Assembly: GCF_001441615.1 (NCBI RefSeq)
Contig: NZ_LAXJ01000002.1
Location: 1 to 64,000, forward strand
Source: Roseovarius atlanticus
GTDB taxonomy: Bacteria > Pseudomonadota > Alphaproteobacteria > Rhodobacterales > Rhodobacteraceae
Length of the DNA stretch: 64,000 nt
Direction: 5' to 3'
The stretch's first letter is position 1, and the number at the start of each line of letters is the position of its first letter. Shown piece after piece: positions 36,985 through 38,714 of the stretch. Made by a program: the position numbers and the translations under genes. The notes beneath the pieces were generated by a model that was given only the letters and a program-made list of their open reading frames with translations, had not been told where the DNA came from and did not search any database.

Positions 36985-37233
36985 TCAGAAGAAATCGAAA
37001 TGATCGGTCATCGTGAAATCCGAGACCGGCTCAGGCTCTGGCGCCACGTCCATATCGTCGCTGCCTGACCCGCCTGTCTGATAGCTGCTTATCAGGATAT
37101 CTGACAACTCGTACGCGGTTTCATCGGTGGGCTCCGAAGCCTTGAAATCGAAACTGTCACGCACGTCCTCGCGCTGAACCGGGGTGCCGAAAGAAACGAG
37201 GTCGCTCCACTTCTTGTGATCCTTGTCCGCCAT
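36985..37233 (-). CDS. Hypothetical acidic protein (82 residues)
   Basis: The product (MADKDHKKWSDLVSFGTPVQ and onward) is acidic, contains DDMDVAPEPEPVSDF, and ends in DHFDFF. It has no membrane segment or known motif and looks partly disordered. An AGAGGA-like Shine-Dalgarno stands before the ATG. It converges on recG and is divergent from the SOS-box unit at 37369. I do not recognise the family. Confidence 0.6.
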   Translation of the reverse strand: MADKDHKKWSDLVSFGTPVQREDVRDSFDFKASEPTDETAYELSDILISSYQTGGSGSDDMDVAPEPEPVSDFTMTDHFDFF

Positions 37234-37368
37234 TTTCCATGTCCTCTTGCGTTGAAATTTGTAACTGGAAGTCGCCGCCGGCCTGCGAAAGGTTCAAAGA
37301 AAAATTGCAGCCAGATAAGCGCTATTTATCAAAGGCTTGAGCGCTTAATTCCACAAAAGTTCGCAAAT

Positions 37369-37383
37369 GTTCTTATAAAGTTC
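37369..37383 (+). promoter_or_regulatory. LexA (SOS) box before a 40-residue membrane protein gene
   Basis: GTTC-TTATAAA-GTTC is an exact match to GTTC-N7-GTTC. A further GTTC at 37359-37362 lies 10 bases earlier, giving three half-sites about one helical turn apart. The box ends 67 bp before the ATG of the small gene at 37451. Confidence 0.75.
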
Positions 37384-37450
37384 TTTACAAATGGTTTCCA
37401 AAATGAGAACAAAGGGGCAACAGAAGTTCACGGCACCAAGGAGCCAACCG

Positions 37451-37573
37451 ATGCTGACCCAGATCAAGACCGCTGCCAAACGCTCTGCCGACACTCTGCT
37501 CGGTGATTTCATCGGCGGTGCGGCGCTGGTCGTCACGCTGGTGGGCGGGCTCTACCTTCCGGGACTGATGTAA
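37451..37573 (+). CDS. Putative SOS-regulated small membrane protein (40 residues)
   Basis: The product has a basic N-terminus (MLTQIKTAAKRSADTLLGDF) and one hydrophobic helix (IGGAALVVTLVGGLYLPGLM). AAGGAG stands eight bases before the ATG. A perfect LexA box lies upstream, and a very strong terminator ends the unit at 37747. By analogy with the SOS-induced, single-helix division inhibitor SidA of Caulobacter, it could act on the divisome or membrane during DNA damage. This is inference; there is no sequence match that I can claim. Confidence 0.65.
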   Translation: MLTQIKTAAKRSADTLLGDFIGGAALVVTLVGGLYLPGLM

Positions 37574-37611
37574 CCGTTTCTGCCTGCGTATATCCCTTGC
37601 GCGTCGCGCTT

Positions 37612-37680
37612 GCGTCTCCTGTCCCCTGACGCGGCCTGATACTGTCCCCTTTGTCCGGGGTGTTGCCTCTTCCCCGGACA
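37612..37680 (+). ncRNA. Hairpin-rich 3' region or small RNA downstream of the SOS small gene
   Basis: Hairpin 1 has arms GCGTC (37612-37616) and GACGC (37628-37632) with the C-rich loop TCCTGTCCCCT. Hairpin 2 has 9-bp arms TGTCCGGGG (37652-37660) and CCCCGGACA (37672-37680). CTGTCCCCT occurs twice, once in the first loop and once between the hairpins. Exposed C-rich loops could pair with Shine-Dalgarno-like G-rich RNA. Whether it is only a 3' UTR or is processed into a small RNA cannot be told from sequence. Confidence 0.35.
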
Positions 37681-37710
37681 CGACGCGCCAAAGCGGATCA
37701 CGCATTCCTT

Positions 37711-37747
37711 CCGCCGCCGCTGTTCCAGCGTGCGGCGGTTTTTTTTT
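37711..37747 (+). terminator. Strong Rho-independent terminator
   Basis: A 12-bp stem (CCGCCGC then CGCTG at 37711-37722; CAGCG, a bulged T, GCGGCGG at 37726-37738) closes the loop TTC and is followed by nine T residues. This is the strongest terminator in the window and ends the unit that starts at the SOS box. Confidence 0.92.
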
Positions 37748-37847: not shown

Positions 37848-38714
37848 ATGCACGACCACGCCCACGGGCACAGCCACGTTCCGAAGAAGGAACGCACCAT
37901 CGCCATCGCGGCAGCCCTGACAGGGGGCTTCATGCTGGCCGAACTCGTGGGCGGGATCCTATCGGGCTCGCTGGCACTCTTGGCCGATGCGGGGCACATG
38001 CTGACCGATTTCGCCTCGCTGATGCTGGCCTGGTTCGCCTTTCGCATCGCCCGGCGGCCGGCAGACTGGAAGCGGACCTATGGATATGACCGGTTCTCGG
38101 TGCTGGCGGCCTTCGTCAACGGCCTGACGCTGTTCGCAATCGCGCTCTGGATCGTGATCGAGGCGGTGCGGCGGCTGGCGCAACCGGTCGAGGTGCTGGG
38201 CGGGCTGATGCTGTGGGTGGCGCTGGCGGGGCTGGTGGTGAATATCGTCAGCTTCTGGGTGCTGACGCGCGAGGACAGTGACAACCTGAACATCCGCGCC
38301 GCAGCATTGCACGTGGCGGGGGACCTGCTGGGCTCCGTCGCGGCTATCGTCGCCTCGCTGGTGATCCTGTGGACAGGCTGGATGCCCATCGACCCGATCC
38401 TTTCGGTGCTGGTGGCGGTGATCATCCTGCGCTCGGCGCTGAAAGTGGTGCGTGAAAGCGGGCACATCCTGCTCGAGGGCGCGCCCGGCGGGTTCGACCG
38501 GCGCGAGGTGGCCGAGGCACTGACGCGCGACGTGCCGGGCGTGGCCGAGGTCAGCCACGTTCATGCCTGGCAGGTTACGCAGGAGCGCCCCATGGCGACG
38601 CTGGACCTGTCGGTGAGCGACGGGCACGATGCCGAGACGGTCAAACAGGCGGTGCGTGACAGGCTGCGCGAAGACTACGGCGTGGATCACGCGACGATCG
38701 AAGTGGTGCGCTGA
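37848..38714 (+). CDS. czcD: Cation diffusion facilitator (zinc efflux, CzcD/ZitB type)
   Basis: A 288-residue inner-membrane proton-coupled metal exporter. The N-terminus is histidine-rich (MHDHAHGHSH). Six membrane helices carry the metal sites LLADAGHMLTDF and ALHVAGDLLGSV, i.e. the HD/HD pairs typical of zinc transporters. The cytoplasmic C-terminal domain has VSHVHAWQVT. AAGGAG precedes the ATG at 37848. Palindromes with the core TTCGTACGAA flank the gene on both sides. Confidence 0.9.
   Translation: MHDHAHGHSHVPKKERTIAIAAALTGGFMLAELVGGILSGSLALLADAGHMLTDFASLMLAWFAFRIARRPADWKRTYGYDRFSVLAAFVNGLTLFAIALWIVIEAVRRLAQPVEVLGGLMLWVALAGLVVNIVSFWVLTREDSDNLNIRAAALHVAGDLLGSVAAIVASLVILWTGWMPIDPILSVLVAVIILRSALKVVRESGHILLEGAPGGFDRREVAEALTRDVPGVAEVSHVHAWQVTQERPMATLDLSVSDGHDAETVKQAVRDRLREDYGVDHATIEVVR

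Follow-up and report, generated by a model that had tools for sequence, protein, structure and literature searches.

In Caulobacter crescentus, the SOS-induced inner-membrane protein SidA, 29 amino acids long, is reported to inhibit cell division through FtsW (PMC4211646), and two further papers describe the filamentation of a Caulobacter lexA mutant as dependent on sidA (PMC13384398, PMC12700426). The Caulobacter LexA motif has been published as GTTCN7GTTC (PMC12700426). YneA of Bacillus subtilis and SosA of Staphylococcus aureus are likewise described as SOS-induced division inhibitors, and in Klebsiella pneumoniae the SOS sRNA DinR, cut from the 3′ end of the dinI mRNA, is reported to repress ftsZ (both PMC10907235). 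TisB and DinQ are described as SOS-induced single-helix peptides of Escherichia coli. Within the literature covered here – titles and the openings of abstracts, with subscription papers mostly outside it – we found nothing on how Rhodobacterales restrain division in the SOS response and no description of the unit presented below.

We analyzed a 64,000-nt window from Roseovarius atlanticus contig NZ_LAXJ01000002.1; all coordinates follow window numbering. A first-pass annotation had proposed an SOS unit for a small membrane protein. Direct reading recovered each of the signals on which it was built: a GTTC at 37359, a GTTC-N7-GTTC box at 37369–37383, an AAGGAG, a 40-codon frame at 37451 and a 9-T terminator at 37711–37747. 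The box, the coding evolution of the gene and the predicted helix uphold the proposed unit, but the proposal had overlooked a conserved 3′ RNA and an inverted near-box. Because of this RNA, the unit is more than a small-protein gene. Its features are:

37359–37362, plus strand: third GTTC half-site, 10 bp 5′ of the box (GTTC-N6-GTTC), read directly and exact at this fixed spacing in 110 of 121 aligned loci.
37369–37383, plus strand: LexA-type box GTTC-N7-GTTC, read directly and exact in 121 of 124 ortholog loci.
37384–37413, plus strand: conserved promoter/operator block TTTAC-N15-TGAGAACAAA, from the ungapped alignment of 121 loci.
37407–37421, minus strand: inverted near-box GTTG-N7-GTTC (GAAC-N7-CAAC on the plus strand), with GAAC and CAAC both exact at fixed spacing in 104 of 121 loci.
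37438–37443, plus strand: Shine-Dalgarno AAGGAG, read directly; a loose purine-rich word is present in 181 of 191 unique genes.
37451–37573, plus strand: gene for a 40-amino-acid protein, MLTQIKTAAKRSADTLLGDFIGGAALVVTLVGGLYLPGLM, with ATG at 37451, stop at 37571–37573 and invariant D19 and G22.
37577–37710, plus strand: conserved structured RNA in the 3′ UTR, from the covariance model, covariation and folding z.
37711–37747, plus strand: intrinsic terminator with 9 T, read directly; its inner stem is also found by a terminator scan.

By number alone the box says little. The genome carries 111 exact GTTC-N7-GTTC motifs on both strands against 110 for the reversed control, and the window has two where 1.5 are expected. 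Since this count is at chance level, the case had to be carried by conservation. Loss of the box from relatives that keep the gene had been set beforehand as a refuting test; we found an exact GTTC-N7-GTTC within 250 nt 5′ of the gene at 121 of 124 nonduplicate ortholog loci, against 1 of 686 upstream windows of gene starts in a background set of 40 stretches of 20 kb, picked at round coordinates from six genomes. The 124 loci combine the 30 best tblastn matches, loci from the order and class profile searches, 60 further tblastn loci taken in list order and 20 weak ones mostly from the order-level profile search, with seven duplicate rows removed before counting. Each of the three misses has its own character: L064 retains a half-site, L122 has GTTC-N7-ATTC, and at L138 the match hit the end of recG, the true gene of that genome lying in L362 with an exact box.

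Conservation extends well past the box. Aligned on it without gaps, the 121 loci share the pattern GTTC-N6-GTTC-N7-GTTC-TTTAC-N15-TGAGAACAAA-N4-CAAC, and the consensus base is kept in 104–121 of the 121 loci across TTTAC and in 111–119 across TGAGAACAAA. The exact 45-base composite at 37369–37413 occurs in 152 of 295 family genomes, one copy each (reversed control, 0), and in 4 of 385 genomes of the class, all Rhodobacteraceae. The converse search, with the composite over a named collection, matched at least 118 stretches, 80 of which were examined. By title, these 80 come from genera of the Rhodobacterales or from bins assigned to Rhodobacteraceae or Alphaproteobacteria, and in 78 of the 80 the small-protein profile scores above 18 bits just 3′ of the composite; the other two are L232 (9.4 bits) and L180 (1.2 bits, clipped by the end of the locus).

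An exact box also lies 5′ of recA and 5′ of lexA in 16 of 16 genomes each, beginning within ~85 nt of the start codon in the case of lexA. The sole other exact box in the window, at 544–558 on the minus strand, stands before recA (match 679–1641). That the identical motif precedes both genes in every genome examined makes it very likely that the unit is regulated by LexA, and the unit is apparently induced by DNA damage. The inverted near-box is oriented like the boxes of recA and lexA, and LexA probably binds it as well. Compared with a plain LexA box, the block has greater length and rigidity, its half-sites being stepped at 10 and 11 bp, as might be expected were the operator read by a different regulator; given that lexA and recA are preceded by the identical half-site geometry in all 16 genomes examined, we regard this as highly improbable.

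No promoter was found when both strands were scanned for the sigma-70 consensus, and a −10 element was not recognizable. The third base of TTTAC is G in 16 of the 121 loci, giving TTGAC, and G101 has TTGACA. Given these variants, TTTAC, which follows the box, may be the −35 element, and we treat it as a candidate. LexA sites have been reported at recG of some alphaproteobacteria (PMC3323433); the accessible text of a paper with predicted LexA sites in D. shibae mentions neither this unit nor recG (PMC6473078). As a separate observation, further AT-rich GTTC-N7-GTTC motifs lie near frame starts elsewhere in the R. atlanticus genome (L142, L143, L145, L147, L148 and L149), among them one with a 98-amino-acid frame 50 nt from GTTCTTTTTATGTTC; these are possible additional SOS genes.

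With the 40-residue protein as query, tblastn matched 179 of 295 family genomes at E ≤0.01, with one match per listed genome. A profile search of the order matched 138 of 149 genomes, all of one family, these matches being counted without individual inspection. Nine of the 11 order misses have an exact GTTC-N7-GTTCTTTAC and a diverged frame of 31–43 amino acids with D-x-x-G; a tenth, G101, combines the box and TTGAC with a 42-amino-acid D-x-x-G frame; and in the eleventh, G365, no operator was found with up to one mismatch allowed. The class profile search (A1) matched 6 of 289 genomes, four in the family and two with weak partial matches inside long frames. Within the class samples, the small protein thus appears to be confined to Rhodobacteraceae. 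Plasmid or phage origin was considered and set aside, as neither collection gave a match to the window protein.

Short forms of 31 amino acids, beginning just before the D-x-x-G helix, occur in L366, L367, L369, L370 and L371, and the same loci have a shorter 3′ RNA and a different terminator stem. In the window, an acidic 82-amino-acid frame without a Pfam or NCBIfam match (36985–37233, minus strand) sits between recG and the unit, and a frame for a cation-efflux-like membrane protein, judged by eye from its His-rich start, follows at 37848–38714. By eye, several relatives apparently have a reverse-strand frame next 3′ of the unit instead. In relatives the end of recG mostly lies nearer, with a median distance of 111 nt to the gene.

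The gene evolves as a coding sequence under purifying selection, judging by its substitution pattern: pN/pS is 0.085 in 13 pairs at ≥90% identity and climbs with distance to 0.488 at 50–60%. The start codon is ATG in 187 of 191 unique genes. Asp19 and Gly22 (window numbering) are invariant in all 191, and P37, L34 and L26 are nearly so; this set excludes L138, L180, L232, L230, L175, L140 and proteins outside 36–44 amino acids. A 17-residue stretch with mean hydropathy above 1.6 is present in 200 of 200 proteins of 36–44 amino acids, and AlphaFold2 places helices at residues 2–11 and 13–39 with a mean pLDDT of 87. The model and hydropathy agree with the single-helix membrane protein of the first-pass annotation, and the product is predicted to be a tiny single-pass inner-membrane protein. 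The window protein had no match in Pfam or NCBIfam. Among 52 members compared, none matched an NCBIfam family and Pfam gave four strays, each confined to a single member (best E 0.0077); the one match among PDB sequences, at E 0.6, we take as chance.

What might such a protein do? SOS-type control, size and a single hydrophobic helix would all fit a peptide of the TisB/DinQ kind, which would depolarize the inner membrane and send damaged cells into dormancy, leaving the divisome untouched. Judged by its alignment columns, however, the helix is plainly hydrophobic apart from D19 and has no charged face, the invariance of two residues hints at a specific partner, and no opposite-strand sigma-70 promoter for an antisense RNA was found in what is a weak consensus scan; we consider this reading unlikely. 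A different SOS task without a division role – whether as a protease adaptor in the membrane or in secretion or gene transfer agent release – is doubtful to the same degree. Nothing specific favors such a task, although a protein with no known relative leaves room for it. Most of the family has the unit, and a permissive pattern search, run without a control, placed a recG end no more than 600 nt before it in 176 of 203 loci, which points to a core damage response.

The transcript carries a second conserved element. At ortholog loci the mRNA has a LexA-type box at its 5′ side and a conserved RNA plus terminator at its 3′ side, with a terminator-like end found by pattern search in 116 of 123. 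Single folds and an 11-sequence seed give a multi-branched fold, its inner hairpin arms closed off by a long stem, along with the terminator, and the C-rich motifs CUGCCUG, CUGUCCC and UGCCUC lie in the single-stranded parts of the fold; among 116 extracted 3′ UTRs, CUGCCUG occurs in 94 and CUGUCCC in 92. Some diverged members have a shorter 3′ RNA. When 162 of the 3′ UTRs were aligned with MAFFT and folded with RNAalifold, the consensus was paired in the terminator alone, and this attempt was set aside.

We built a covariance model from the 11 seeds with the multi-branched fold entered as its structure. It gave 76 matches at E ≤0.1 among 100 of the 113 non-seed loci and missed 24; the window copy scores 29.1 bits. 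All matches but one (75 of 76) lie on the strand of the gene directly behind it; the exception, L013, is misplaced and was kept in the pair count, and some of the matched loci are same-genus kin of the seeds. All 34 modelled pairs have changed on both sides among these 76 sequences. Paired cells amount to 87.7% against 62.1% in shuffled alignments, and covariation is 0.521 against 0.160 shuffled and 0.056–0.095 slid, a collapse in the slid versions. Since the RNA alignment (A3) is fitted to the modelled structure and leans towards it, the shuffles, slid versions and folding z serve as checks. Folding z averages −3.0 over 54 of the 162 cores, with 40 of the 54 below −2 and the window copy at −5.1, and −0.4 in 39 downstream control stretches. 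The 3′ RNA shows compensatory evolution. The window stretch and ten relatives gave only sub-threshold scores in Rfam 15, with nothing near a gathering score, and a known RNA family was rejected as an explanation for this reason. An RNA of this kind within the transcript suggests a dual function.

Because DinR represses ftsZ, we examined ftsZ as a pairing partner of the loops. Its start region carries a form of ACAGGCGGACAG in many of 42 relatives and GGACAGG within the first codons of some, and this region is complementary to the CUGUCC, GCCUGU and CCUGUCC loop motifs. There is good conservation across the family (L280–L321) of the ribosome-binding region of ftsZ itself, which reads as a form of AACAGGCGGACA. 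When the best three of four consensus loops are summed, ftsZ ranks 10/109, 6/106, 6/59, 6/76, 13/239 and 17/81 in six genomes, the top 5–21% of start regions; by the best single consensus loop its ranks in the same genomes are 24, 13, 13, 9, 14 and 32. With the folded loops of each RNA itself they scatter: 49/109, 33/106, 2/59, 1/76, 10/239 and 10/81. Over 21 genomes, own loops pair with ftsZ at −41.5 and shuffled loops at −32.7, a control that concerns ftsZ alone, and own RNA–ftsZ pairs have no advantage over swapped ones (−41.5 against −41.8, with 1508 of 2000 permutations equalling or bettering them). In the window genome, the ftsZ leader contains no GGACAG ahead of the start, and GGGACAGG occurs at codon 10. 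A contrast with seven genomes thought to lack the unit was void and was dropped because all but G365 have it. With controls this mixed, pairing with ftsZ is a lead rather than a result.

These data bear on whether the RNA is itself the main effector – an sRNA derived from the 3′ UTR of an SOS transcript that pairs through its C-rich loops, with ftsZ as one target and the protein as an accessory. The strong covariation and well-conserved loop motifs, the complementary ftsZ start regions in many relatives, the summed consensus ranks, the advantage of own over shuffled loops and the DinR precedent (PMC10907235) all speak for it. Against it stand the weaker single-loop ranks, the scattered ranks of own folded loops, the equality of own and swapped pairs and the absence of GGACAG before the ftsZ start in the window genome, and we hold an RNA-led mechanism to be improbable.

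Taken together, we regard as real an SOS-type unit that is common to most Rhodobacteraceae and whose protein family and structured RNA match no library searched. Its likeness to SidA leads us to take division arrest as its most likely function, with a probability of about one half, and the unit may be a Rhodobacteraceae brake on division during DNA repair. To our knowledge, TisB and DinQ are SOS membrane peptides that do not inhibit division, which counts against this reading.

Under division arrest, LexA in undamaged cells would sit on GTTC-N7-GTTC, and probably also on the near-box, and block a promoter between or under them. Damage would lead to LexA cleavage and release a single short transcript ending at the terminator, encoding the 40-residue inner-membrane protein and carrying the folded 3′ RNA. 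The protein would have a basic N-terminal part, one transmembrane helix starting from the invariant Asp and almost no tail, and it would bind membrane parts of the divisome and halt septation as SidA does. The 3′ RNA would stabilize or tune the transcript, or act through base pairing. We infer the LexA binding, induction, topology and division block of this scheme, as well as any RNA target. For the explanation as a whole – a LexA-switched transcript, a SidA-like division-halting protein and a 3′ RNA that tunes or pairs – we consider the chances about even. A more ambitious form, in which one LexA-controlled promoter drives both a divisome-binding micro-protein and an RNA whose C-rich loops lower translation of, for example, ftsZ, strikes us as unlikely; if true, a single promoter would let Rhodobacteraceae arrest division through both a protein and the control of mRNA.

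The unit provides one small, widely shared candidate that is open to deletion, overexpression and tagging, and it adds a structured RNA without an Rfam 15 family. It also makes testable a damage checkpoint that uses a micro-protein and an RNA from a single transcript. What is new here is the conserved multi-branched 3′ UTR RNA with its C-rich loops.

Among the described systems, SidA shares with this unit LexA control of the GTTC-N7-GTTC type, a tiny single-helix protein and an alphaproteobacterial host. The unit protein differs in its 40 amino acids, its invariant D-x-x-G, the structured RNA in its transcript and its family-wide spread; the class profile search gave no sign of a sequence relation. 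TisB and DinQ resemble it in SOS control and a single hydrophobic helix, but here no antisense RNA was seen in the weak sigma-70 scan and the helix is uncharged except for D19. YneA and SosA are SOS-induced and block division, as the unit protein may by analogy, but their hosts are Gram-positive. DinR likewise combines LexA-type control of a small-protein mRNA with a 3′ RNA part that ends at the terminator, whereas the Rhodobacteraceae RNA has a covarying fold that is conserved at the level of the family, and for pairing with ftsZ there is no more than a lead.
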